Source: Pseudanabaena mucicola str. Chao 1806 (lineage in GTDB: Bacteria > Cyanobacteriota > Cyanobacteriia > Pseudanabaenales > Pseudanabaenaceae). From it: 64,000 nt of DNA. The stretch covers positions 1,519,001 through 1,583,000 of the forward strand of contig NZ_CP097329.1 in NCBI RefSeq assembly GCF_030323025.1, given 5' to 3'. Position numbers and translations under genes: made by a program. The notes beneath the pieces are model-generated. The model saw nothing but the letters and a program-made list of their open reading frames with translations, was not told the origin of the DNA and did not search any database. This document shows positions 1-41,179 of the stretch, piece after piece; within the stretch, counting starts at the first letter, position 1; each line of letters starts with the position of its first letter.

Positions 1-279
1 TATCTCTAGTTTATCTGTTCTAGTCGATTGAGGGTTAGATGTGGGGCTATCAATATCTATATGGCTATTTTGCAGGCGTGTGAACAATGCTTGGCATTGT
101 TTGTCTAAGTTCTCTAGCTGTGAGTCATCGTTTAGACCCTCAAGATGCGATCGCAATTGCTTGAGCTGATCCCTTAGATGAATTGTATCTGAAGTTGCCT
201 TTCTAGATACTGATCCTACAGGACGGCTCAGCAAAGTATTAATTTCATCGATCAAGTTACTAATCAGAACTTTTGACAT
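1..279 (-). CDS. Hypothetical protein, 3' end beyond window
   Basis: An open frame starts at an ATG at 279 on the minus strand and stays open for 93 codons to the window edge, so only the N-terminal part is visible. The product begins MSKVLISNLIDEINTLLSRP and is hydrophilic and predicted helical, with a stretch rich in Leu, Gln and charged residues (LRDQLKQLRSHLEGL) that looks coiled-coil-like. A purine-rich AGGGGGCG lies just upstream of the start and a GGAGG about 17 bases upstream. I recognise no family. It is transcribed divergently from the next gene. Confidence 0.55.
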   Translation of the reverse strand, partial: MSKVLISNLIDEINTLLSRPVGSVSRKATSDTIHLRDQLKQLRSHLEGLNDDSQLENLDKQCQALFTRLQNSHIDIDSPTSNPQSTRTDKLEI

Positions 280-424
280 AACGCCCCCTAGATGACCTCC
301 TTAATGAGCTAAACTTTAAAGCCAAATTTGTTAGCAGACAATAGCACACATCTTTCCCAATTTTTTGCTAATATCTTGGCGATTTTTCTTTAAACTCTTT
401 TGTGAGTTTCTGGCGAAGATAACT

Positions 425-3530: not shown

Positions 3531-4574
3531 ATGACAATAGTTTTGGCGGGTGATATTGGTGGCACTAAGACACTTTTGCGTCTAGCAGAACCTGAGGGGA
3601 CAGCATGGCGATCGCTATATGAGCAACGTTTTGCTAGCACTAACTATGCTAGTTTCTCCGATGTTTTATGTGAATTTCTTGCTCAGGCAAACCAGCATTT
3701 AGGTGATTTGCCAACTTTATCGGTGGCTTGTTTGGGCATTGCTGGACCTGTGCGTGATCGTCGATCACAATTGACAAATTTAGGTTGGGCGTTTGATAGC
3801 GATCGCCTTGCTATGGAATTTAATATTCCCAAGGTCAGCTTGATTAATGATTTTGTAGCGGTTGGTTATGGGGTTTTAGGATTGCAACCTCATGACTTGT
3901 ATACTTTACAAGACGGGAATGTGTTAGAACGAGCGCCAATAGGGGTAATTGGTGCAGGAACAGGATTGGGTGAGGCATATTTAGGATGGAATGGCGATCA
4001 TTATCAGGTTTATGCTACAGAGGGAGGACATACGGATTTTGCACCGAGGAATGAGCTAGAAATTGAGTTATTAAAGTATTTGCAAAAACGTCACGATCGC
4101 GTATCTGTAGAACGGGTAGTTTCAGGAATGGGGATTGTAGCAATTTATCAATTTTTGCGCGATCGCCAAGCTGCAACTGAATCTCTAGAAATTGCCGAAA
4201 AAGTGCGTCAATGGGAAAATGGAGATGTGGAGTCGGGAGCCGCCGCCGCGATCGCTAATGCCGCCTTAGCTAATTACAGAATCAATAGCGATCCTCATTG
4301 TGATTATCTTGCTACAAAGACAATGCAAATATTTGAGGAAGCCTATGCTACTGAGGTTGGGAATTTTGCATTAAAGTTAATTCCTAATGGCGGTCTATAC
4401 ATTGCAGGCGGCATTGCCCCAAAAATCTTACCCTTACTTCAGGCAGGCTCATTTCTGAGGATTCTCAAGGGTAAGGGGAGAGTTAGTTCTGTATTAGATG
4501 ATATTCCCATTCACATTGTGCTAAATCCTGAAGTGGGGCTAATTGGTGCGATGCTTTATGGAGCTAGCCTGTGA
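3531..4574 (+). CDS. glk: Glucokinase
   Basis: ROK/Glk-type glucokinase, 347 residues: ATP-dependent phosphorylation of glucose to glucose-6-phosphate. Visible motifs are the N-terminal phosphate loop LAGDIGGTKTLLRL, the second glycine-rich segment GVIGAGTGLGEAYL, the sugar-binding YATEGGHTDFAPR, and near the C-terminus GGLYIAGGIAPK. The ATG at 3531 starts right at the conserved MTIVLAGDIGGT; a longer frame from 3489 would overlap the upstream HEAT gene and add residues outside the family. The 3' end overlaps the convergent pdxH gene by 19 bp, so the two transcripts are antisense to each other at their ends. Confidence 0.93.
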   Translation: MTIVLAGDIGGTKTLLRLAEPEGTAWRSLYEQRFASTNYASFSDVLCEFLAQANQHLGDLPTLSVACLGIAGPVRDRRSQLTNLGWAFDSDRLAMEFNIPKVSLINDFVAVGYGVLGLQPHDLYTLQDGNVLERAPIGVIGAGTGLGEAYLGWNGDHYQVYATEGGHTDFAPRNELEIELLKYLQKRHDRVSVERVVSGMGIVAIYQFLRDRQAATESLEIAEKVRQWENGDVESGAAAAIANAALANYRINSDPHCDYLATKTMQIFEEAYATEVGNFALKLIPNGGLYIAGGIAPKILPLLQAGSFLRILKGKGRVSSVLDDIPIHIVLNPEVGLIGAMLYGASL

Positions 4575-5194
4575 ATATCCCAAGTTTGATTTTCTTGTAA
4601 GGTATATAAGAAGCGATCGTGCAAGCGATTGGTGCATCCTTGCCAAAATTCAAAGCTATTCGGAACTACGCGATATCCTCCCCAGAAATCAGGTAAGGGA
4701 ATTTCGCCATCCATAAATTTCTGTTTGATCTGTTCAAATTGCATCAGTAGAAGTTGTCGTGAAGAAATAATAGAGCTTTGTTGAGAAGTCCACGCTCCTA
4801 ACTGGCTACCACGAGGACGGGAGCTAAAGTATTCCCAAGATTCGGTGGTACTTACTTTCTCCGCAGTTCCTGTGATATGGACTTGGCGCTGTAGAGGTAG
4901 CCAAGTAAACAGAATAGAAACCTTGTGATTATGCTCAATTTGTTGCGCCTTGCGACTTTCATAGTTAGTAAAAAATACTAATCCCTTCTCATCAAAATAT
5001 TTTAGTAATACTGTCCGCATAAAGGGTTGACCATCAGCATTAACAGTTGATAGAGTCATGGCATTAGGTTCTAGCAACTCGGCATTACAGGCTTGCTGAA
5101 ACCATTTTTCAAACTGCTTAAAGGGATCATCATATAGGTCTTTGCGTCTTAGTTCCCCCTTTTTATAATCTTCTCTTAGTGCGTGTATATCCAT
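4556..5194 (-). CDS. pdxH: Pyridoxamine 5'-phosphate oxidase
   Basis: FMN-dependent oxidase of 212 residues that makes pyridoxal 5'-phosphate from pyridoxine- or pyridoxamine-phosphate, the last step of vitamin B6 synthesis or salvage. Typical segments: N-terminal LREDYKKGELRRKDL, the FMN-binding core RTVLLKYFDEKGLVFFTNYESRKA, QVHITGTAEKVS, SRPRGSQLGAWTSQQS, and the C-terminal substrate loop EFWQG...NRLHDRFLY ending in RLAP. Full length for the family. Tail-to-tail overlap of 19 bp with glk. Confidence 0.95.
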   Translation of the reverse strand: MDIHALREDYKKGELRRKDLYDDPFKQFEKWFQQACNAELLEPNAMTLSTVNADGQPFMRTVLLKYFDEKGLVFFTNYESRKAQQIEHNHKVSILFTWLPLQRQVHITGTAEKVSTTESWEYFSSRPRGSQLGAWTSQQSSIISSRQLLLMQFEQIKQKFMDGEIPLPDFWGGYRVVPNSFEFWQGCTNRLHDRFLYTLQENQTWDIHRLAP

Positions 5195-5375: not shown

Positions 5376-5963
5376 ATGCTAGTTCAAACTAAAAGGTTTA
5401 CGATCGCGGAATATCATCGCCTCAGTGATTTGGGAATGTTGCAAAGCGAGTTTGACTCCCCACGCACCGAATTAATTAAAGGAGAAATTGTATCAATGTC
5501 AGCTAAAGGTACTAAGCACACAGTTTGCTGTAGTAATTTAATTGCAGAACTGTCAGCATTAGTTAGGGGGCGAGCAATATTGAGATGTCAAGATCCAATT
5601 TTTTTGCCTCCTGATAGTGAACCTGAGCCAGATTTTACGATTGTGCGCGATCGCGAAGATAACTATCTCACAGGACATCCCATAGCCGATGATATTTTGT
5701 TAGTCATTGAAATTGCTGATTCTTCTCTTAATTACGATCGCGATGTCAAAGGTGCACTTTATGCCGAAGCGGGGATTGAGAACTACTGGCTATTTAACCT
5801 AGTAGATAATCGTTTAGAAGCTTATAGCGAACCTTATCGTGATGCTCAAGGGAAAGGTAACTATGCTCAAAGAAAATATGTTCTTGCCCATCAAGCAATC
5901 GCTTTACCCACATTGACTGATACGAGTATAGAACTGAGCAAAATTTTACCTGATGCCAAGTAG
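5376..5963 (+). CDS. Uma2 family endonuclease-like protein (DUF820)
   Basis: 195 residues of the PD-(D/E)XK-fold Uma2/DUF820 family, which is greatly expanded in cyanobacteria and whose function is not established. Visible: the N-terminal FTIAEYHRL, ELIKGEIVSMS, the acidic EPEPDFTIV, then LLVIEIADSSLNYDRDVKGALYAEAGIENYWLFNL, holding the E...D...K triad. Same domain as the tandem genes near 40 kb, but a different subfamily with low identity. A strong terminator overlaps its stop codon. Confidence 0.85.
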   Translation: MLVQTKRFTIAEYHRLSDLGMLQSEFDSPRTELIKGEIVSMSAKGTKHTVCCSNLIAELSALVRGRAILRCQDPIFLPPDSEPEPDFTIVRDREDNYLTGHPIADDILLVIEIADSSLNYDRDVKGALYAEAGIENYWLFNLVDNRLEAYSEPYRDAQGKGNYAQRKYVLAHQAIALPTLTDTSIELSKILPDAK

Positions 5964-6077: not shown

Positions 6078-7577
6078 ATGATTTTCCCTGAGTATTCTGA
6101 CTTTATTAAGCTTGCTGAGCAGGGCAACTTTGTACCTGTATATATGGAACTGGTTGCAGATCTAGATACCCCTGTGTCAGCTTGGTATCGAGTCTGTCAA
6201 GGTCAACCCTATAGCTTTTTGTTAGAGTCAGTCGAAGGTGGCGAGAGAATTGGACGTTACAGTTTATTGAGTTGCGATCCCCTATGGGTATTAGAAGCAA
6301 GGGGAGATCGCACAACACAAACATTTCGTGATGGCACAACCAAAGAATTTATTGGTAATCCCTTTCAACATTTGAGTAATTGCCTCACACCAATTCATCC
6401 TGTGCATTTGCCAGAGTTGCCGCCAAGCCTGGGGGGACTATTTGGCTATTGGGGCTATGAATTAATTAATTGGATCGAGCCAAAAGTACCTGTGTTTCCC
6501 TGTCAGGAGGGAGATACACCCGATGGTGTATGGATGCAGGTCGATAGCTTATTGGTATTCGATCAGGTCAAACGTAAAATCTGGGCGATCGCCTATGCTG
6601 ATTTAAGTAATGGTAATGCTCCCGAAGCAGCCTATAAATCTGCTAGCGATCGCTTGACGATATTAGTGGATAAATTGAGATCGCCTTTAGATCGCAAAAA
6701 AACTGCAATCAAATGGACAAATCCTCGCTTACAGCCACCTGTCAACTTTACCAGCAATGTCACCCGTGAAAAATTCTGTAAGGGAGTTGAGCTAGGTAAG
6801 GAACATATCAAGGCTGGTGATATCTTCCAAGTTGTTCTCTCGCAGCGTCTGACAACGGAATTTAAAGGCGAGCCATTTAGTCTATATCGTTCCTTGCGCG
6901 TAGTTAATCCTTCGCCCTACATGGCCTTCTTTAACTTTAAAGATTGGCAGCTTATTGGCTCTAGCCCTGAAATTATGGTTAAGGCAGAGGTAATTAATGG
7001 GGTTTCCAAGACTGTGCTCCGACCAATCGCAGGTACAAGACCTAGAGGTGCAAACTCTTTAGAGGATGCAGAACTTGCCAAAGATTTACTTGCCGATCCT
7101 AAGGAAGTTGCGGAACATGTGATGCTCGTAGATTTAGGCAGAAATGATCTAGGTCGTGTATGCAAAAGTGGCACTGTCAGAGTCGATGAGCTAATGTCCA
7201 TTGAGCTTTATTCTCATGTCATGCATATCGTCAGTAATGTAGTCGGTGAAATTCGTCCTGAAAAAAATGCTTGGGACTTATTGCAAGCCTGTTTCCCTGC
7301 GGGTACGGTTAGCGGTGCGCCGAAGATTCGTGCCATGGAGATTATCCACAATTTAGAAGGCGATCGCCGAGGAACTTATGCAGGAGCTTATGGCTATTAC
7401 GATTTTGAAGGACAGTTGAATACTGCCATTACCATTCGCACAATGGTAGTCAAGGATGGCAAGGCAAGCGTACAGGCGGGTGCTGGTGTAGTTGCCGATT
7501 CTGATCCTCAGAAGGAATATCAGGAAACCTTGAATAAGGCAAAGGGAATGTTGGAATCTTTACGCTGCTTAGGTTAA
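6078..7577 (+). CDS. trpE: Anthranilate synthase component I
   Basis: 499 residues, full-length TrpE: converts chorismate and ammonia (from the TrpG subunit) to anthranilate, the first step of tryptophan synthesis. N-terminal regulatory half contains LLESVEGGERIGRYS, the LLES-type tryptophan feedback site. Catalytic half shows GDIFQVVLSQRL, NPSPYMAFF, GSSPEIMVK, RPIAGTRPRG, ELAKDLLADPKEVAEHVMLVDLGRNDLGRV, FPAGTVSGAPKIRAMEII and QAGAGVVADS. No glutaminase domain is fused, so TrpG must be encoded elsewhere. Monocistronic here; downstream is a pseudogene. Confidence 0.96.
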   Translation: MIFPEYSDFIKLAEQGNFVPVYMELVADLDTPVSAWYRVCQGQPYSFLLESVEGGERIGRYSLLSCDPLWVLEARGDRTTQTFRDGTTKEFIGNPFQHLSNCLTPIHPVHLPELPPSLGGLFGYWGYELINWIEPKVPVFPCQEGDTPDGVWMQVDSLLVFDQVKRKIWAIAYADLSNGNAPEAAYKSASDRLTILVDKLRSPLDRKKTAIKWTNPRLQPPVNFTSNVTREKFCKGVELGKEHIKAGDIFQVVLSQRLTTEFKGEPFSLYRSLRVVNPSPYMAFFNFKDWQLIGSSPEIMVKAEVINGVSKTVLRPIAGTRPRGANSLEDAELAKDLLADPKEVAEHVMLVDLGRNDLGRVCKSGTVRVDELMSIELYSHVMHIVSNVVGEIRPEKNAWDLLQACFPAGTVSGAPKIRAMEIIHNLEGDRRGTYAGAYGYYDFEGQLNTAITIRTMVVKDGKASVQAGAGVVADSDPQKEYQETLNKAKGMLESLRCLG

Positions 7578-7616: not shown

Positions 7617-7694
7617 AGGACTTACGCAAACCGAATGAATTTATTACGCATTGGGTAGATGTGGTGCGCCACATCTACCCAATGCGTAAGTCCT
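7617..7694. repeat. Palindromic repeat family B, copy 1
   Basis: Ends AGGACTTACGCA and TGCGTAAGTCCT are perfect inverted repeats, enclosing the outer tract AACCGAATGAATTTATTA and an inner hairpin (TTGGGTAGATGTGGTGC and its complement). Further copies are at 11177, 14192, 19285, 27699, 52811 and 62715 in both orientations. It lies at the 5' break of the TIGR04222 pseudogene. Confidence 0.85.
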
Positions 7695-8578
7695 AATTAT
7701 TTTTGCCTATGGTCTTCGCTATTACTTACGGCTTCCTAGTAATAGTCTGATACAACCACCTGATCCTCTCGATGCATATGAAGTAGCCTATCTTGTTGAT
7801 GGCAACAAACGGGTTTTTGATACTGCGATCGCTAGTCTGTTTCTGAAAGGTTATATCAACATAGATTCCAAACTCCGTATGATATATTTAGACAGCCTCA
7901 ATGGATAGATTAGATTGTCCGATCCCATCGAAAAGGCAGTCGCAGAGGTGCTGCAATCCTATACCTACATTGACAGCATTACTAAATCAAATTTATCTGC
8001 AACCCAAGCAATTCGCGATCGCCTACAAAATTGGGATCTTCTGGTCAAGCCGCAACAAGCCTTTATTTGACAAGATTTACCCAGCAGTTTTAATCGCTTG
8101 CTTGTTAGGATTAGGTATTGCTAAGACTTTAGTAGGACTCTCCCGTGGTAAGCCTGTTGGTATTTTGATTGCAATGTGTGCGATTGTTGCAATCATTGGG
8201 CTAGTTTTTAGTCAGAAAGCAGTTCATCGTAGTCGCTATGGCGATCGCTTTCTCAGTAATCTGCGTAACCATATACCTAATAAGGGCTTTAGCCTTAATG
8301 ATGTCCAACTCCCTCTCGTCGTTGCACTTTTGAGTATAGCAATTTTGCCAAATGATGCATTTGCTGACTTAAAAAGTCTGCTAACACCAGTATCTAATAG
8401 TGGTGGTGATGGTATAGCGGTTTTCATTTTGCCTACGACAAAATGAAAACTCAAAACTCTTAATGGGACTGATTTTTTGTTTTCAAATGAGTGTGTACTC
8501 ATTTGAAAACCGCTATAGTAGTGACGGTGGTGATGGGGAGGAGCCTCACTACCCTATAATCTTGGGATTGGGGGCTTA
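7695..8578 (+). pseudogene. TIGR04222-type membrane protein, degraded
   Basis: Three blocks in shifting frames read as one decayed protein. 7697-7905 gives LPSNSLIQPPDPLDAYEVAYLVDGN and ends at a TAG; 7910-8068 gives LSDPIEKAVAEVLQSY and ends at a TGA; from about 8070 another frame gives two membrane helices (IACLLGLGIAKTLVGLSRGKPVG, then IAMCAIVAIIGLVF) and a Gly/Asp-rich tail (SNSGGDG...SSDGGDGEE) ending at 8578. This order (winged-helix-like part, transmembrane pair, glycine-rich tail) matches TIGR04222 domain proteins. The N-terminus is missing, and a family A element is inserted in the glycine-rich tail. Confidence 0.75.
8413..8517. mobile_element. MITE family A (105 bp, TA-flanked), copy 1
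   Basis: TATAGCGGTTTTCATTTTGC at one end and CATTTGAAAACCGCTATA at the other, with two inner hairpins (CATTTTGCC/GGCAAAATG type and CAAATGAGTGTG/TACTCATTTG). Removing the element and one TA joins GGTGATGG to TAGTAGTGAC and restores an open Gly-Asp-Ser frame in the host pseudogene, direct evidence of insertion with TA duplication. Copies at 10616, 14088, 18856 and 41878 have the same 105-bp length; a diverged one is at 19022. Confidence 0.88.
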
Positions 8579-33768: not shown

Positions 33769-34956
33769 TTAGGCGATGCTGCTCCGCTTGCGAGATTCTT
33801 TGTAGGAGGTGGTGATATTGCGTAAACCTGACTTCACCATGTGCTGTTCTAAAATTGCAAAAAAACGACGGCGATCGCTACTCGTAACTACGGCTTGATT
33901 ATGTGCCTCCGCCAGTGCCACAGGATAGCCATAACCTTTCTGGACTTGGGCGAGAATGATTCGCAAAGCTTGTGATCGCATTTCTGCATCAAGGGCAGTC
34001 CAAACGGGCATCTCGATTCTGGCAATTTCTGAACCTACATGGAGATAACAAAAATAAATCTGATGTTCGCCATATTCCTCCAAAATTCTCGCCTGACTTT
34101 GCCAGAGAGGACTACATTCGCCAACTTTTAATAAACGACTCCATAATGTGCCATCGCGCAAGGGTTGAATTTGGCTACAGGGTGCAGCATCTAGCGGTTT
34201 TGCAGAACAGTGGGTATGACAATCGGGTTGCTCAAAAGGACAGATTTGCAAGCGCAAAAAATTAGTTACCTCCGCCGCGCGGGGGGCGCTGATATAGCCT
34301 GCGAGAGGAATCCGTTGTGCTTTTAAGTTATCCCATGCCGACAGAATATCTGGTAAAAGCTGAGATCGCGCATCGGCAGGAATCTCATCCAGTTCCCAAT
34401 GGACTAAGGCTCCATCGCTAAAAGCGAGTATTGGTGACTGAGGGTAAGTCGCTATTGTAGCGATCGCTAAATTCGCGAGGGTGACATTCTCAGCAACAGT
34501 GCGCTTGAGGGTCATCCATTGTTCTGTCTGAATTCCCCATTGACGCGCTTTATAGAGATCTTCCGTTTTATAAAAGACTTCAGGAACATTATCGAGTAAT
34601 GGATAAATGCCAGAATTATAGTAAATGGCAACTCGACCGATATTAATCAAATAGCAATAGGCGATTTCATGGCGGCTAGGGGCAATCTGTGAGCCATCGG
34701 TAGCAAGAACAATATGTGGTGTGGTTATAGGTGCTATTGCCTGGATTTGCCTTAGTGGTTCTGCTGGTTCCGCGCAATTAAACATGAAGCGATCGCGCCA
34801 TAGCTCACTATGCTGACAAAGATGAGATTGATTGGCAATGGCTTCAGTAAATAAAGTTTCTGCGTGATCGAGCTTAGCAGTCAATTGCTGAGCTTCTTTC
34901 TGCAATTGTTCAGACATCCCTTGCATCTGTCCCATCAATTTCTGTAAATCAAGCAT
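33769..34956 (-). CDS. NurA domain-containing protein
   Basis: 395 residues. The NurA-type nuclease core is seen in VLATDGSQIAPSRHE (metal-binding Asp), LAFSDGALVHWELDE and later ARIEMPVWTA. N-terminal 40 residues form a short coiled coil (LMGQMQGMSEQLQKEAQQL). NurA nucleases act in DNA end processing with HerA in archaea; cyanobacteria have this domain without an obvious HerA partner nearby. It contains a Cys/His-rich patch (CPFEQPDCHTHCS) that could bind metal. Divergent from the non-coding RNA region. Confidence 0.82.
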   Translation of the reverse strand: MLDLQKLMGQMQGMSEQLQKEAQQLTAKLDHAETLFTEAIANQSHLCQHSELWRDRFMFNCAEPAEPLRQIQAIAPITTPHIVLATDGSQIAPSRHEIAYCYLINIGRVAIYYNSGIYPLLDNVPEVFYKTEDLYKARQWGIQTEQWMTLKRTVAENVTLANLAIATIATYPQSPILAFSDGALVHWELDEIPADARSQLLPDILSAWDNLKAQRIPLAGYISAPRAAEVTNFLRLQICPFEQPDCHTHCSAKPLDAAPCSQIQPLRDGTLWSRLLKVGECSPLWQSQARILEEYGEHQIYFCYLHVGSEIARIEMPVWTALDAEMRSQALRIILAQVQKGYGYPVALAEAHNQAVVTSSDRRRFFAILEQHMVKSGLRNITTSYKESRKRSSIA

Positions 34957-35066
34957 AGTTATCTCTAAAGTTCAAGAGAACAGGAAATGCAATCATCTCA
35001 CTTTGAGCATAATTTACATCAATGTACTACTTAATGAATAGGTTGTAACATTTTTGGCGATCGCTA

Positions 35067-35101
35067 TTGCATTCTTGTAGTACGTGTAGTATAAATGTAG
35101 T
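35067..35101 (+). promoter_or_regulatory. Sigma70-type promoter candidate for the tRNA-like RNA array
   Basis: TTGCAT at 35067-35072, 17 bp, then TATAAA at 35090-35095, predicted start near 35102. The spacer and -10 region hold three close direct repeats of (T)GTAGT (35076, 35086, 35097), which could be a regulator site. No coding frame follows for almost 1 kb, so a transcript from here would be non-coding until the Ro60 gene. Confidence 0.55.
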
Positions 35102-35177
35102 GCAACATGGTTCAAGCGCGTAGAACGCCTAGTCTAATTGCGATTACAAGTACTGCTCCAGTATTTGTATATCAATT

Positions 35178-35304
35178 AGGAAAGGAGATGCAGCCTCGCA
35201 AACTGCTGAATTCCTTTATGCAATGACTTGCCTATTTGGGCTGAAGCATTCAGGGTTATTGCTACCAGATAGGTGCTACTTGCGAACAAGCAGCACCTAT
35301 CCCA
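35178..35304 (+). ncRNA. Structured RNA candidate 0 of the Ro60 array (Y-RNA-like)
   Basis: No long frame. First a stem GGAAAGGA/TTCCTTT enclosing GCAG/CTGC; then ACTTGCC-TATTT-GGGC, the conserved TTCAGGGTTATTGC (motif at 35252-35262), and a strong 3' hairpin GATAGGTGC...GCACCTATC with inner CTTG CGAA CAAG. It aligns with RNA candidates 1 and 3 across the ACTT..CC...GG...GCA..TTCAGGGTTAT(C/T)GC block but lacks the acceptor and T arm. Limits are approximate. Confidence 0.5.
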
Positions 35305-35320
35305 AAATCAAAACTCTTAT

Positions 35321-35349
35321 TTTAAATTTTGCCTACGGCAAAATTTAAA
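35321..35349. repeat. Inverted repeat family J, copy 1
   Basis: TTTAAATTTTGC CTACG GCAAAATTTAAA, a near-perfect palindrome 10 bp before RNA candidate 1. The longer copy at 35978 has the same outer ends TTTAAATTTTG/CAAAATTTAAA. Confidence 0.65.
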
Positions 35350-35359
35350 TTGAATACAT

Positions 35360-35484
35360 TGACGGATAGCTCAGTGGGTAGAGCATTGAAAACATCCTTT
35401 GTCGTCACTTACCTGCAAAGGTCGCAGATTTAGGGTTATCGCCTGAAACGCCAAGTGTCGAGGGTTCGAGTCCCTCTCCGTCAA
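35360..35484 (+). ncRNA. tRNA-like RNA candidate 1 of the Ro60 array (Y-RNA-like)
   Basis: 125 nt. Canonical 7-bp acceptor TGACGGA/TCCGTCA with discriminator A, TA at positions 8-9, D arm GCTC AGTGGGTA GAGC, and T arm GAGGG TTCGAGT CCCTC. Where a tRNA has a 17-nt anticodon arm plus variable loop there are 75 nt: a stem CCTTTG/CAAAGG, a small ACC-TGCAA-AGGT hairpin, and the motif TTTAGGGTTATCGC (35432-35442). Too short for a group I intron. Elbow elements are intact, so tRNA-processing enzymes could recognise it; decoding is unlikely. Confidence 0.7.
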
Positions 35485-35566
35485 TTGGGAGTTTGATTTT
35501 GAGTAATGTTTTGGAGAGATAGTTATGCGATCGCAATCGAAACTTCTCTTTGCCCAAGATAAAAAT

Positions 35567-35587
35567 GTGTGGTGCTTCGCACCACAC
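35567..35587. repeat. UUC-loop hairpin between RNA candidates 1 and 2
   Basis: GTGTGGTGC TTC GCACCACAC, a perfect 9-bp stem just before RNA candidate 2. No T run. Could separate or stabilise the RNAs. Confidence 0.5.
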
Positions 35588-35595
35588 GTTAATTC

Positions 35596-35672
35596 AAGGG
35601 ACGAATTGGTGAGGGTTATCGCTTTGGTTGCATCACCTCCATGAGGTGATTGGGTTCGACTCCCATCCCTTC
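35596..35672 (+). ncRNA. tRNA-like RNA candidate 2 of the Ro60 array (Y-RNA-like)
   Basis: 77 nt. Outer stem AAGGGA/TCCCTT and T arm TGGG TTCGACT CCCA. Next to the T arm is an 8-bp hairpin ATCACCTC CAT GAGGTGAT, in the place of a long variable arm. No canonical D arm; instead AATTGGTGAGGGTTATCGCT carries the shared motif at 35612-35622, followed by TTTGGTT. I find no proper anticodon stem, so this is not an ordinary tRNA. Confidence 0.6.
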
Positions 35673-35831
35673 CTAAACTAGAGGTTTTGCCTGCTGGTTG
35701 CCATCTTTCTTTAACAAAGCACAAAATCAAAATTCCAAATCGGTAGTCCTAAAGAATTAATGGAGTGTTGCGCGTAGTGTGGCACTTCATTACTCAAAAT
35801 CTCTACTTCTTTAGCTCTACCCTCAATCTTG

Positions 35832-35951
35832 GGGTGGATAGTTCAACTGGTAGAACGCACTTTGCCCGTAAGGGATGCAGACTCAGGGTTATCGCTTCTA
35901 ACGATCTCCCCCCTTTGTCGCGAGATGTGGGTTCGATTCCCATTCCACCCC
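35832..35951 (+). ncRNA. tRNA-like RNA candidate 3 of the Ro60 array (Y-RNA-like)
   Basis: 120 nt. Acceptor GGGTGGA/TCCACCC (an extra G-C pair is possible), TA, D arm GTTC AACTGGTA GAAC, T arm GTGGG TTCGATT CCCAT. The anticodon-arm position holds 70 nt: CACTTTGCCCGTAAGGG (CCC-GTAA-GGG tetraloop hairpin), GCAGACTCAGGGTTATCGC (motif 35885-35895), then a 7-base loop CTTCTAA closed by ATCG/CGAT and a hairpin ATCTC...GAGAT. CTTCTAA looks like an Arg(UCU) anticodon loop. The closest RNA to the Ro60 gene. Confidence 0.7.
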
Positions 35952-35977
35952 CTTCTAAAAGCTTTTAGCTTTTAGGC

Positions 35978-36020
35978 TTTTAAATTTTGAATGCACTTAC
36001 AGTGCATTCAAAATTTAAAA
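35978..36020. repeat. Inverted repeat family J, copy 2
   Basis: 20-bp perfect arms (TTTTAAATTTTGAATGCACT and complement) around TAC, between the last tRNA-like RNA and the Ro60 gene, followed by AAAA. It may act as a processing or termination signal that separates the RNAs from the mRNA. Confidence 0.65.
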
Positions 36021-36089
36021 AAATATCCTTCTCTTTGGTCGAGGTGAAGGAAGTTCTCTTTAACTTTCCCTTACGGGACGGAGAATGTC

Positions 36090-37694
36090 ATGTCATATAA
36101 ATTCTTATTCCAGAAACCCAAAGGTACTCCTCAAACTCAAGCGATCGCAGGTCGTGAAGCCGAAATGATCCAAGGGCGATCGGGTGGCTTTGCCTTTGAT
36201 GCGGGTATCTGGCGCATGTTGCGTCGTTGCTTGCTGATTGGTACGGCTCAAAGTACCTACTACGCTGGCAAGCACGAACTGTCCACCGATTTCATTGATA
36301 CGGTGCAGAAATGCGTTGCTGAAAATCCCGATCGCGTGGCGAGCGAAATTCTCTATGCTAGCGATGGTCGTGCGGTGAATAACAGCGCTCCCATTCTGGC
36401 TCTAGTCTTGCTATCGATGGGTGACAGTCAAGCGGCAAAACGGAACTTCATGGAAATCTTTCCTCAAGTTGTCCGCACAGGTAGCCACTTCTATGAATGG
36501 ATGAACTACACCAAGTCCATGCGTGGCTTCGGTAAAGTCATTCGTGAAAGCGGTAAGGCATGGCTCTCCAATCCCGACACCAATGCGCTAGCCTACCAAT
36601 TGCTGAAGTACCAACAACGGCAAGGCTTCTCGCACCGTGATGCGTTGCGTTTGTTTCACGTCAAGCCTGCAACCGACGATCAACAAGCGCTATATCAATG
36701 GGTGGTCAAGGGTTGGGATGAACTTCCTTCAAAAATTCCATCGGATGCGCTAGCGCAAATCTGGTGGTATGAATGGCTCAAGCGTCACCCTGACAAGACC
36801 CATGAAGCGATCGCCAAGGGTAAACTCACCCATGAAATGGCGGCTCCCATCGGACAGATGGATGTGCGTGCATGGCAGTTGCTCTTTAACGAAATGCCCA
36901 TCGGTGCGCTATTGCGGAACCTTGGTTCTTTGACGGAACTTGGTGTCTTGACTGCGAAAAACAAGGATAACTTGAAGCATGTTGCCAATGTCTTGAACAA
37001 TCGCGATCGCCTGAAGAAGGGACGCATTCACCCCATTGATGTTTTGAAAGCTCTCAAGACCTATCAATCGGGCGGTGCGCTCGGACGTAGCCAAAAGACT
37101 TGGCAACCAATTCCGCGCATTGTCGATATTCTGGAAACTGCTCTGGAAATGTCCTTCGATGCGATCGCGCCTACGGGTGCGACTTTCCTCCATGCGATCG
37201 ATGTGTCAGGTTCGATGGCTTACTACACCGTTAGTTCCATTGGCTTGACCTGCTGCGAAATCGCGGCAACGATGGCTTTGGCAACGGTGAAGGCGGAAAC
37301 CAACTATGCGATCCGTGGATTTGCAACCGACTTCCGCGATTTGGGAATCACCAAAAAGGATTCCTTTACATCGGCAATGCAAAAGGCATCAAGCCAAAAC
37401 TTCGGTGGTACGGATGCGTCGGTGGCTTACGATTGGGCGATTAAGAATAAGTTCTATGCGGATGTGTTCTGCTTCTGGACTGATTCCGAATCTTGGGCAG
37501 GTCGTCGTCATCCTAGTGAAGCTTTGGCAGAATATCGCCGCAAGGTTAATGCTAATGCAAAAGCAATCTATGTGACCTTGGCTCCCTACAAGCTTTCGCT
37601 AGTCGATCCCAAAGATCCTAATTCTTGGGATATGGGAGGTTTCGACCCTGCAATGCCCCGTGCGATCCAAATGGTAGCAATGGGTGAAGTCTAA
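36090..37694 (+). CDS. rsr: TROVE domain Ro60 ribonucleoprotein homologue
   Basis: 534 residues. N-terminal two thirds are the alpha-helical TROVE ring (SGGFAFDAGIWRMLRRCLLIGTAQSTYYAG, SMRGFGKVIRESGKAWL, HRDALRLFHVKP, the positively charged inner surface that holds single-stranded RNA ends and Y RNA). The last third is a von Willebrand A domain with a full MIDAS: HAIDVSGSMAYYT (DxSxS), GGTDASV (Thr) and CFWTDSESW (Asp). Ro60/Rsr binds misfolded RNAs and Y RNAs and in bacteria works with PNPase or near RtcB. Start ATG has ACGGAG upstream. Preceded by an array of tRNA-like RNAs, the expected setting for Y RNA genes. Confidence 0.93.
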   Translation: MSYKFLFQKPKGTPQTQAIAGREAEMIQGRSGGFAFDAGIWRMLRRCLLIGTAQSTYYAGKHELSTDFIDTVQKCVAENPDRVASEILYASDGRAVNNSAPILALVLLSMGDSQAAKRNFMEIFPQVVRTGSHFYEWMNYTKSMRGFGKVIRESGKAWLSNPDTNALAYQLLKYQQRQGFSHRDALRLFHVKPATDDQQALYQWVVKGWDELPSKIPSDALAQIWWYEWLKRHPDKTHEAIAKGKLTHEMAAPIGQMDVRAWQLLFNEMPIGALLRNLGSLTELGVLTAKNKDNLKHVANVLNNRDRLKKGRIHPIDVLKALKTYQSGGALGRSQKTWQPIPRIVDILETALEMSFDAIAPTGATFLHAIDVSGSMAYYTVSSIGLTCCEIAATMALATVKAETNYAIRGFATDFRDLGITKKDSFTSAMQKASSQNFGGTDASVAYDWAIKNKFYADVFCFWTDSESWAGRRHPSEALAEYRRKVNANAKAIYVTLAPYKLSLVDPKDPNSWDMGGFDPAMPRAIQMVAMGEV

Positions 37695-39536: not shown

Positions 39537-41132
39537 AACGTAAAGTACAAAAGACTATGGTTACTGTACCTTCTCAATACCGTTTGCCAACTGCGGAAGA
39601 CCTACCCGATTCCGATGAAACGCCTGTGGATAATGAACTCCAAAATGACATTCCCAATATTCTATTAAACCTATTACGAGAGATTTGGAGCGATCGCACT
39701 GATTGGTTTTGGGGTGTGGATATGGGAGTGTATTACGAGCCAAACATTGAGGAGCCAGCCAAGTCTAAGGCAATTATTCCCGACGGATTTCTCGCTTTGG
39801 GTGTACCGAAGCAAACTGGTGAAGGTGGACGTTTGAGCTATGTGGTTTGGCAGGAAAAAGTCATGCCAATTCTGGCTTTAGAAGTAGTTTCTAAAAAATA
39901 TAATGGGGAATACGACACCAAGTTAGCCAAATATGCAGAGGTAGGAATTCTCTATTATGTGGTTTACAATTCCACAACTGGTCGCCGATTGTATAAGGAT
40001 CATCAATCTCTAGAAGTATACAAGCTAGTCGATGGGAAGTATCAACTTTTGCCTGCGGTGACGCTTTTAGCAGAAAGCGGAAGAATGGTATGGCTTCCTG
40101 AGATTGGTTTGGGAATTGGTAGTGAGCAGGGTATTTATGATGGTTGGCAGCGCGAATGGGTCTATTGGTACGATCGCTCTGGCAAGAGATATCCCACTGC
40201 TCAAGAACTTGTGAACCTAGAACGTCAGGTGAGACTTGAGGCTGAGGTGATCGCTGAGCAAGAAAAATTAATTTCGCAACAGGAGCGTCAGGAGAAAGAA
40301 AAACTTGCCGCTTATCTGCGATCGCTTGGTATCAATCCTGATGAAATCTAATCTTTGATATTTTGGGGACATAGTGCGATCGCTACGGTAAAGCTCAAAA
40401 AAACATGTCAGAATAGTAACAACGTAAAGTACCAAAAAACTATGGTTACTGTACCTTCTCAATACCGTTTGCCAACTGCGGAAGACCTACCCGATTCCGA
40501 TGAAACGCCTGTGGATAATGAACTCCAAAATGACATTCCTAATATTCTATTAAACCTATTACGAGAGATTTGGAGCGATCGCACTGATTGGTTTTGGGGT
40601 GTGGATATGGGAGTGTATTACGAGCCAAACATTGAGGAGCCAGCCAAGTCTAAGGCAATTGTTCCCGACGGATTTCTCGCTTTGGGTGTACCGAAGCAAA
40701 CTGGTGAAGGTGGACGTTTGAGCTATGTGGTTTGGCAGGAAAAAGTCATGCCAATTCTGGCTTTAGAAGTAGTTTCTAAAAAATATAATGGGGAATACGA
40801 CACCAAGTTAGCCAAATATGCAGAGGTAGGAATTCTCTATTATGTGGTTTACAATTCCACAACTGGTCGCCGATTGTATAAGGATCATCAATCTCTAGAA
40901 GTATACAAGCTAGTCGATGGGAAGTATCAACTTTTGCCTGCGGTGACGCTTTTAGCAGAAAGCGGAAGAATGGTATGGCTTCCTGAGATTGGTTTGGGAA
41001 TTGGTAGTGAGCAGGGTATTTATGATGGTTGGCAGCGCGAATGGGTCTATTGGTACGATCGCTCTGGCAAGAGATATCCCACTGCTCAAGAACTTGTGAA
41101 CCTAGAACGTCAGGTGAGACTTGAGGCTGAGG
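39537..41132. repeat. Tandem duplication of a Uma2 gene (two 711-bp units)
   Basis: Unit 1 is 39537-40247 and unit 2 is 40421-41132. From ATG to the break the two run in register 885 bp apart with only a few single-base differences (for example CCC/CCT early and ATT/GTT in the isoleucine/valine codon before PDGFLALG). Similarity starts about 20 bp before the ATG and stops abruptly in the codons for EAE. Confidence 0.9.
39557..40351 (+). CDS. Uma2 family protein, tandem copy 1
   Basis: 264 residues. Uma2 fold: PDGFLALGVPKQTGEGG, then ILALEVVSKKYNGEYDTKLAKYAEVGILYYVVYN with the E...D...K nuclease-like triad, and VWLPEIGLGIGSEQGIYDGWQREWVYWYD. Its C-terminus is a charged coiled coil ending AEQEKLISQQERQEKEKLAAYLRSLGINPDEI, the usual family ending. 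Function of the family is unknown; PD-(D/E)XK fold suggests nucleic-acid cleavage. Copy 2 begins 90 bp downstream. Confidence 0.88.
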   Translation: MVTVPSQYRLPTAEDLPDSDETPVDNELQNDIPNILLNLLREIWSDRTDWFWGVDMGVYYEPNIEEPAKSKAIIPDGFLALGVPKQTGEGGRLSYVVWQEKVMPILALEVVSKKYNGEYDTKLAKYAEVGILYYVVYNSTTGRRLYKDHQSLEVYKLVDGKYQLLPAVTLLAESGRMVWLPEIGLGIGSEQGIYDGWQREWVYWYDRSGKRYPTAQELVNLERQVRLEAEVIAEQEKLISQQERQEKEKLAAYLRSLGINPDEI

Positions 41133-41179
41133 CGTTATTACAAAAGTATCGCGATCGCTTCGGTGATATCTCTGAATGA
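40442..41179 (+). CDS. Uma2 family protein, tandem copy 2 with different C-terminus
   Basis: 245 residues from the ATG that matches the start of copy 1 (the frame is open upstream to 40355). Identical to copy 1 over about 230 residues except Ile to Val before PDGFLALG, then it diverges after LEAE to a short ALLQKYRDRFGDISE ending instead of the coiled coil. The sharp switch marks the edge of the duplication or a gene-conversion tract. Confidence 0.88.
   Translation: MVTVPSQYRLPTAEDLPDSDETPVDNELQNDIPNILLNLLREIWSDRTDWFWGVDMGVYYEPNIEEPAKSKAIVPDGFLALGVPKQTGEGGRLSYVVWQEKVMPILALEVVSKKYNGEYDTKLAKYAEVGILYYVVYNSTTGRRLYKDHQSLEVYKLVDGKYQLLPAVTLLAESGRMVWLPEIGLGIGSEQGIYDGWQREWVYWYDRSGKRYPTAQELVNLERQVRLEAEALLQKYRDRFGDISE

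Follow-up and report, generated by a model that had tools for sequence, protein, structure and literature searches.

Candidate Y RNAs with an unpermuted tRNA architecture beside a cyanobacterial Ro60 gene

In the 64,000-nucleotide (nt) stretch of Pseudanabaena mucicola str. Chao 1806 analysed here (the window), a complete Ro60 gene is preceded on the same strand by four elements that share the core GGGTTATYGC and lie within 1.1 kb of it. Judged by comparative sequence analysis, these elements are very probably the Y RNAs of the adjoining Ro60, with an unpermuted tRNA architecture in the two that have a tRNA body. The evidence comprises their architecture and covariation, the Ro60 linkage of strong matches, a conserved anticodon loop in which the triplet varies, a module-like hairpin beside the start codon of Ro60, and the joint occurrence with the RtcB gene. 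An earlier note on this DNA had proposed a candidate cyanobacterial Y RNA system, which covariance-model linkage and covariation now support, and all four RNA-like elements are present where it had placed them. Three features go beyond that note: the circular permutation relative to the Y RNA YrlA, an anticodon loop whose triplet varies, and the hairpin in the leader. The features are as follows, with scores from R1, a covariance model built from the elements of relatives (element 2 is itself among the rows of its alignment, A1):

35178-35304, plus strand: element 1, a core hairpin (CTTGCC, loop, GGGCTGAAGCATTCAGGGTTATTGC) without T arm or acceptor
35360-35484, plus strand: element 2 (class 1), a tRNA-like cloverleaf (R1 match at 35358-35486, 117 bits; covariation on A1)
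35388-35439, plus strand: presumed Ro60-binding module of element 2 (alignment A1; covariation in helices 4 and 5)
35595-35672, plus strand: element 3, short, with core, T arm and terminal stem AAGGGA/TCCCTT, without D arm
35832-35951, plus strand: element 4 (class 2; Rfam tRNA model 43 bits; R1 match at 35830-35953, 55 bits; 7 of 9 B/B' pairs)
35891-35905, plus strand: anticodon-like hairpin AUCG-CUUCUAA-CGAU of element 4 (compare the 21 of 29 class-2 elements with a 7-nt loop)
36067-36083, plus strand: leader hairpin TCCC-TTAC-GGGA with the ribosome-binding site CGGAG after it, resembling the module cap; proposed autoregulatory site
36090-37694, plus strand: Ro60 (TROVE and vWA), 534 amino acids (open reading frame, Pfam and PDB matches)

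The array in the window and its Ro60 gene

The identity of the downstream gene as Ro60 is borne out by matches to Pfam vWA_Ro60 (8.7e-39) and TROVE (5.6e-17) and to the PDB entries 2nvo (Rsr, 4e-78) and 9nen (RO60, 6e-66). It is present as one copy in the host genome (4.53 Mb, one contig). The shorter core GGTTATYG occurs seven times on the plus strand of the window and never on the minus strand, and four of these seven occurrences are at 35254, 35434, 35614 and 35887.

R1 returned 29 matches in the host genome at E <= 0.001, among which only those of elements 2 and 4 exceed 96 nt. The Rfam tRNA model also matches element 4, with a 63-nt stretch where the anticodon arm belongs. ARAGORN, as a test for an uninterrupted cloverleaf, called none of the four window elements as tRNA. 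Elements 1 and 3 are suggested as members of the array by the common core and by their occurrence in other Pseudanabaena, where the core of both recurs. Single-sequence folding gave -44.7 kcal/mol (z -3.2) for element 1, which is possibly a Y RNA without a tRNA body, and was uninformative for elements 3 and 4 (z -0.98 and -1.24). An Rfam scan of the region to E 1 yielded the tRNA match and chance matches, mostly to microRNA families on the palindrome at 35978-36020. Like this palindrome, two others between the elements, at 35321-35349 and 35564-35590, are perfect or nearly so and have 12-20-nt arms; all three are possibly processing sites or repeats.

Architecture at cyanobacterial Ro60 loci

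The comparison covered 82 loci, namely the best 80 of 135 public-genome relatives of the window Ro60, Picosynechococcus PCC 7002 (from a plasmid collection) and the window. The 80 relatives are all cyanobacterial records with 71-99% identity to the window Ro60. Core motifs were parsed in the 1750 nt that precede Ro60 and at distances of 1590-2100 nt downstream of its start, which gave 363 motifs. A complete open-acceptor cloverleaf surrounds 206 of them, every one upstream of Ro60, and none of 492 random minus-strand positions attains the cloverleaf score. One to five cloverleaf elements per locus were found in 80 of the 82 loci. The two remaining loci have an element visible by eye below the cut-off (L035) and a truncated leader (L078). 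The expectation in the earlier note that several such RNAs in one array would be unusual does not hold, as 67 of the 82 loci have two or three cloverleaf elements; five loci have only one. The array also occurs in Chlorogloeopsis fritschii PCC 6912. Further, CACCA directly follows the acceptor in 59 of the 206 elements, and a 3' CCA-like end may therefore be encoded. In Picosynechococcus PCC 7002, the Ro60 locus and its three elements are located on plasmid pAQ7.

Class-1 elements have the order acceptor, D arm, B', A', loop, A, B, anticodon arm, T arm, acceptor. In element 2, the parts are an open acceptor (TGACGGA/TCCGTCA), a D arm, a module inserted after nucleotide 28 in the anticodon stem, the loop CUGAAAC and a T arm. 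The module splits the anticodon stem (35386-87 pairs with 35453-54, and 35440-42 with 35450-52) and itself runs B', A', cap loop, A, B, GUUAU. Class 2 was defined as the 35 elements outside class 1 minus six odd ones, and these 29 keep the tRNA body with the strand order A', A, B, hairpin, B'. The 7-nt anticodon-like loop is present in 21 of them and starts with CU in all 21. Element 4 conforms, with these strands and the hairpin placed between the D and T arms of a cloverleaf body. The earlier note had described the elements as lacking a normal anticodon arm, which needs correction for element 2, with its split stem and CUGAAAC loop, and for element 4, with its hairpin at 35891-35905; the correction covers these two only.

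Alignment A1 holds 36 class-1 elements of regular length, namely 35 of 37 representatives (the irregular ones of L039 and L047 were excluded) and window element 2, whose row is nearly identical to that of L002. Against a structure written from row L016, 95.7% of 1180 cells are paired, compared with 40-52% in slid controls, a difference that a one-row structure by itself favours. Changes on both sides are found in 24 of 33 pairs, and every one of the seven helices includes such pairs. The covariation structure includes 31/39, inside the inserted module, as well as 27/43 and 28/42, which lie outside it; the anticodon stem is therefore real, with its split after nucleotide 28. The module is conserved, shows some covariation (helices 4 and 5) and accounts for a large share of the most conserved class-1 sequence; it presumably binds Ro60 and may resemble the vertebrate Y stem. 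The tRNA-like sequence might come from tRNA pseudogenes or tRNA-derived repeats that lie at Ro60 by chance, which the earlier note had named as what would speak against its proposal. This explanation is refuted by the both-side changes in each of the seven helices, provided that the alignment is right. In addition, among the matches listed for 386 genomes under strict filters, none of at least 57.9 bits lies away from Ro60, and we regard chance pseudogenes as extremely improbable.

The segment order was compared with that of YrlA, for which the Rfam model (RF02553) has A, B, T arm, acceptor, loop, acceptor, D arm, B', A', with the Ro60 stem at the RNA ends. The two orders are therefore circular permutations of one another. 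A viral metagenomic contig from IMG/VR (L097) carries an element in YrlA order. For each of 37 class-1 sequences, rotation improves the alignment to this element (mean identity 0.68 vs 0.57 unrotated), the module being matched after rotation. Conceivably, the cyanobacterial RNAs could be of the ordinary YrlA type, with a permuted working unit that reaches from the T arm of an element to the D arm in the following one, the open cloverleaf being an impression left by tandem repetition. The Rfam YrlA model does score such a T-arm/D-arm bridge in PCC 7002 (31 bits), and bridges with six of seven acceptor pairs exist in L020 and L070. However, the acceptor strands form six or seven of seven Watson-Crick pairs within their own element in 169 of 206 elements, as opposed to 16 of 126 pairings with a neighbour. 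The same is seen in close neighbours: in eight neighbour pairs with spacers of at most 20 nt, the own acceptors have 5-7 pairs and the bridge 4-6, never above either own value. The median spacer of 65 nt and the five loci with a lone cloverleaf also argue against a unit that spans two elements. Twelve places came out of a closed-acceptor search. The 13 loci from phages, plasmids, viruses and other Ro60 types account for nine, all with 7/7 pairs (two of the nine resemble adjacent ordinary tRNAs), compared with three in 83 cyanobacterial-type loci, none of them 7/7. The ends typical of YrlA, a terminal Ro60 stem and a closed acceptor, were thus not found in these elements, in which the acceptor strands are predicted to pair round the whole element. 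Taken together, the permuted reading is quite improbable.

RF02553 has no match above its gathering threshold (69 bits) in the host genome, and none to E 1 in 35000-36100, a weak test given that phage and plasmid elements in YrlA order also stay below this threshold (42, 37 and 37 bits) and no control genome exceeds it. Such sub-threshold elements adjoin Ro60 in Gordonia phage Cashline, a Bosea plasmid and Mycobacterium phage Farewell. Scans of viral sequences gave one match for one pattern and none for the other.

Selection by stem pairing alone gave 129 class-1 elements whose anticodon loop has 7 nt. Of these, 123 have U33 and 125 a purine at position 37, and 22 different triplets stand behind U33. 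G37 accompanies G36 (40/43 vs 2/86; over 42 distinct loops, 11/14 vs 2/28, Fisher 5e-6), and the tRNA-His of the window likewise has G36-G37. Across 44 elements at an equal position before Ro60, no column of the RNA varies more than 34, 35 and 36, and column 33 is invariant. Triplet change under a kept loop fits both free and driven change. These loops might also belong to tRNA genes with a new kind of intron, from which splicing of the module would leave a working tRNA. Once the insert is taken out, many elements show a proper anticodon arm (in L029, one with a lysine CUU loop), and G116, a genome lacking a detected Ro60, likewise bears an insert ahead of the anticodon arm in a tRNA-like gene. 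However, near-alike bodies bear different triplets, so that the amino-acid identity of spliced tRNAs would be inconsistent, and AGG is the commonest triplet. The class-1 elements with a poor anticodon stem, the missing D arm of element 3 and the high conservation of the module further disagree with splicing, which we consider very improbable.

Linkage to Ro60 and the leader hairpin

With strict filters, 386 genomes of the phylum were searched with R1, of which 38 have Ro60 above the cut-off. The Ro60 type of the window, defined by a vWA score of 123-143 bits (a range set after inspection of the list), is present in 32 genomes, and all 32 have an R1 match at E <= 6.5e-10. The best match listed in any Ro60-negative genome reaches 9.8e-9 over 76 nt. 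The check recommended in the earlier note, a covariance-model search beside Ro60 genes elsewhere, thus gave a positive outcome, with no equally strong match listed for Ro60-negative genomes. R1 also scores ordinary tRNAs; hence a length limit and a floor of 57.9 bits were applied, the floor being chosen after seeing the list. All 78 listed matches with at least 57.9 bits and at least 105 nt are on the contig and strand of Ro60, and 77 of them adjoin it; the remaining one, in G032, is 3.1 kb downstream. RtcB was found in 38 of 38 Ro60 genomes and in 88 of 348 others.

Within the 40 nt immediately upstream of Ro60, 76 of 82 loci carry a cap-like hairpin pattern fused to the ribosome-binding site, compared with 104 of 19677 control 40-mers. 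This pattern is a wider version written after the leaders had been viewed, and a narrower first version gave 44 of 82. The pattern also precedes the core in 150 of 206 elements. From sequence, there is about an even chance that the leader hairpin serves Ro60 autoregulation. The array as a whole could be a cis-acting leader of the Ro60 mRNA, an attenuator or operator array that never becomes free RNA. Its position immediately upstream on the same strand, the last element near the start codon in many Nostocales and the module-like hairpin on the ribosome-binding site all agree with this. On the other hand, complete tRNA ends exceed the needs of a leader, and many Nostocales loci have an extra core motif about 0.1 kb downstream of Ro60, as seen in the sequence of L079. 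A purely cis-acting array is improbable, and a leader function is compatible with the Y RNA reading. The downstream Nostocales element (L079 at about 5640-5780, the same place in many loci) has an acceptor, core and T arm, no clear D arm, and then a T-rich stretch; it possibly doubles as a terminator.

The Ro60 tree of 37 proteins drew on the window, 24 of 81 cyanobacterial-type loci and 12 further sequences. A branch supported at 98/95 separates the 25 cyanobacterial-type proteins from the rest, with bootstrap values not settled and several long branches. In G121, from the same class, Ro60 clusters with that of a Streptomyces phage (100/100). The G121 leader has elements in YrlA order by eye, which the Rfam YrlA model and the closed-acceptor search missed. 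A tRNA array in G032 (a genome with 7% contamination) has a YrlA match of 38 bits, below the cut-off, beside a class-1 element of 72.7 bits. Other-type Ro60 genes adjoin tRNA arrays in G121, G032 and G018, with 20, 19 and 7 Rfam tRNA matches (L090, L093 and L094), a hint of a wider tie between Ro60 and supernumerary tRNAs.

Several observations weigh against reading the window elements as unpermuted Y RNAs. Two of the four do not match the R1 model and score at chance level (element 1 at 35177-35305, 16.5 bits, E 0.14; element 3 at 35511-35676, 12.9 bits, E 0.89). The good promoter described in the earlier note was not recovered; a sigma-70 scan of the window found 2 sites vs 3.8 expected, none near 35067 on the plus strand. 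Locus counts are not independent events because many loci are close relatives, and RtcB co-occurrence is partly lineage, since within one family it is 21/21 vs 14/21. A good anticodon stem is absent in 33 of 171 class-1 elements. In class 2, strand B' was misregistered in the MAFFT alignment A2 and was tested instead by own-versus-swapped pairing, with weak separation (7.83 vs 7.10 of 9). The commonest triplet, AGG, is not known to be used by bacterial tRNAs, and the triplets are therefore not bound to mirror actual tRNAs. Among the 38 Ro60 genomes, five with other or weak Ro60 types (G121, G021, G029, G018 and G354) have only tRNA-sized R1 matches listed, and a recheck of eight genomes with more candidates scored changed nothing for these five. 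Finally, the Ro60-negative genome G116 carries the following matches, with ordinary tRNAs nearby:

L099 (G116:C1:57400-58100), 273-393, minus strand: tRNA-like gene (121 nt, 52.2 bits) in which about 45 nt are inserted ahead of an anticodon arm that is intact (loop CUGAUAA)
L099, 397-521, minus strand: a weaker match, 37 bits

No GGTTATC core was found in the insert-bearing G116 gene and no Ro60 in a search of G116, and this is possibly an unrelated kind of insert-bearing tRNA. G116 shows that tRNA-like genes with an insert also occur away from Ro60; the core-bearing ones are restricted to Ro60 loci, among the matches listed.

Elsewhere in the window, a NurA-domain gene (33769-34956, minus strand) is the divergent neighbour of the Ro60 locus, and two near-identical tandem open reading frames (39557-40351 and 40355-41179) are a recent duplication.

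Proposed function and comparison with known systems

We infer from the above that the elements are transcribed, bind Ro60 and have a function with it. Erythromycin caused a dramatic rise of TROVE mRNA in Chlorogloeopsis fritschii PCC 9212, for which the authors had no explanation (PMC6424891). Another report describes a joint mRNA increase of TROVE (+4.5 log2) and RtcB (+3.5 log2) in PCC 9212 in coculture under far-red light (PMC11423583). These induction data are from PCC 9212, and the array is known from its close relative PCC 6912. The Salmonella operon of Ro60, YrlA and RtcB responds to tRNA damage, and the tRNA-like part has been suggested as a possible inhibitor of the anticodon nuclease (PMC7790460). 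The RtcB co-occurrence, the PCC 9212 induction and the Salmonella operon together favour a stress ribonucleoprotein that presents tRNA mimics. Most likely, the elements act as Ro60-bound tRNA mimics in translation or tRNA stress, probably with RtcB.

In the proposed mechanism, the leader would be transcribed and then cut to single RNAs, probably by tRNA-processing enzymes because the acceptor is open. Ro60 would bind the module and present the tRNA body, which may recruit tRNA-acting proteins during translation or tRNA damage. Along one route, the body would be a decoy or sensor, serving as bait for anticodon-cutting nucleases, with RtcB re-sealing the cuts; along the other, it would be a handle for a nuclease partner such as PNPase. 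The decoy or sensor role is a tentative proposal and the PNPase tether a doubtful one, the two being about equal. Unbound Ro60 might occupy the hairpin in its own leader and thereby limit its own synthesis. The inserted arm should block ribosome use of the elements.

A bolder and rather unlikely reading is a second Y RNA topology, in which whole tRNAs with a Ro60 handle form a renewable panel of exchangeable anticodon baits, repaired by RtcB and dosed by Ro60 itself through the copy of the hairpin at its start site. In such a panel the triplet could diversify, whether allowed or driven, while U33, the purine at 37 and the G36-G37 rule are kept, a view that we hold with similar reserve. If this unpermuted-bait reading is true, the tandem arrays would show how the permuted YrlA arose.

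The array offers a natural experiment on the role of the tRNA-like part, as the same presumed Ro60 handle is combined with varied anticodons while most else is constant. Thanks to the open acceptor, processing, CCA addition and charging can be put to the test, as they could not with a closed one. The array is present in Picosynechococcus PCC 7002 and Chlorogloeopsis fritschii PCC 6912, and the reported erythromycin induction in PCC 9212 supplies a starting condition. An array of tRNA look-alikes beside Ro60 is a concrete route to testing their role. In the parts of the open-licence literature that were available, no description of the unpermuted form, the anticodon arm or cyanobacterial Y RNAs was found. 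Chen et al. (2014) reportedly found Y RNAs in the neighbourhood of Ro60 in over 250 species, and cyanobacteria may be among them.

The closest known relative is YrlA, which likewise adjoins Ro60 and combines a Ro60-binding stem with a tRNA D arm, T arm and acceptor. These tRNA parts are present in the 206 cloverleaf elements, including window elements 2 and 4 but not 1 and 3. Cyanobacterial class 1 differs in its moved cut point, open acceptor and anticodon arm. The IMG/VR contig L097 (3300034072_000973) has the same modules and the anticodon loop CUUCUAA, in contrast in the permuted YrlA order with the acceptor closed by a 10-nt loop. No Ro60-sized open reading frame was found in the 11.4 kb examined of this 40-kb contig. 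On its minus strand, at about 4560-4680, 7300-7420 and 7690-7850, are three permuted Y-like RNAs of differing tRNA type (one leucine-like) amid tRNA-sized matches. As described in PMC8394870, the 5' and 3' ends of a bacterial Y RNA pair in a large stem, accompanied by a tRNA-like domain. The Deinococcus Y RNA and RYPER (Rsr-Y RNA-PNPase), treated in the same text, share with the window a Ro60 protein (Rsr, 2nvo, 4e-78), there combined with a tethering RNA. The comparison covered the protein, and the PNPase binding found there is a proposal for the cyanobacterial elements. The Salmonella rsr-yrlBA-rtcBA operon is similar in its Ro60, its tRNA-like Y RNAs and an RtcB tied to tRNA damage (PMC7790460). 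It differs in that RtcB of our host lies about 0.2 Mb from Ro60 and that the cyanobacterial RNAs are apparently unpermuted.

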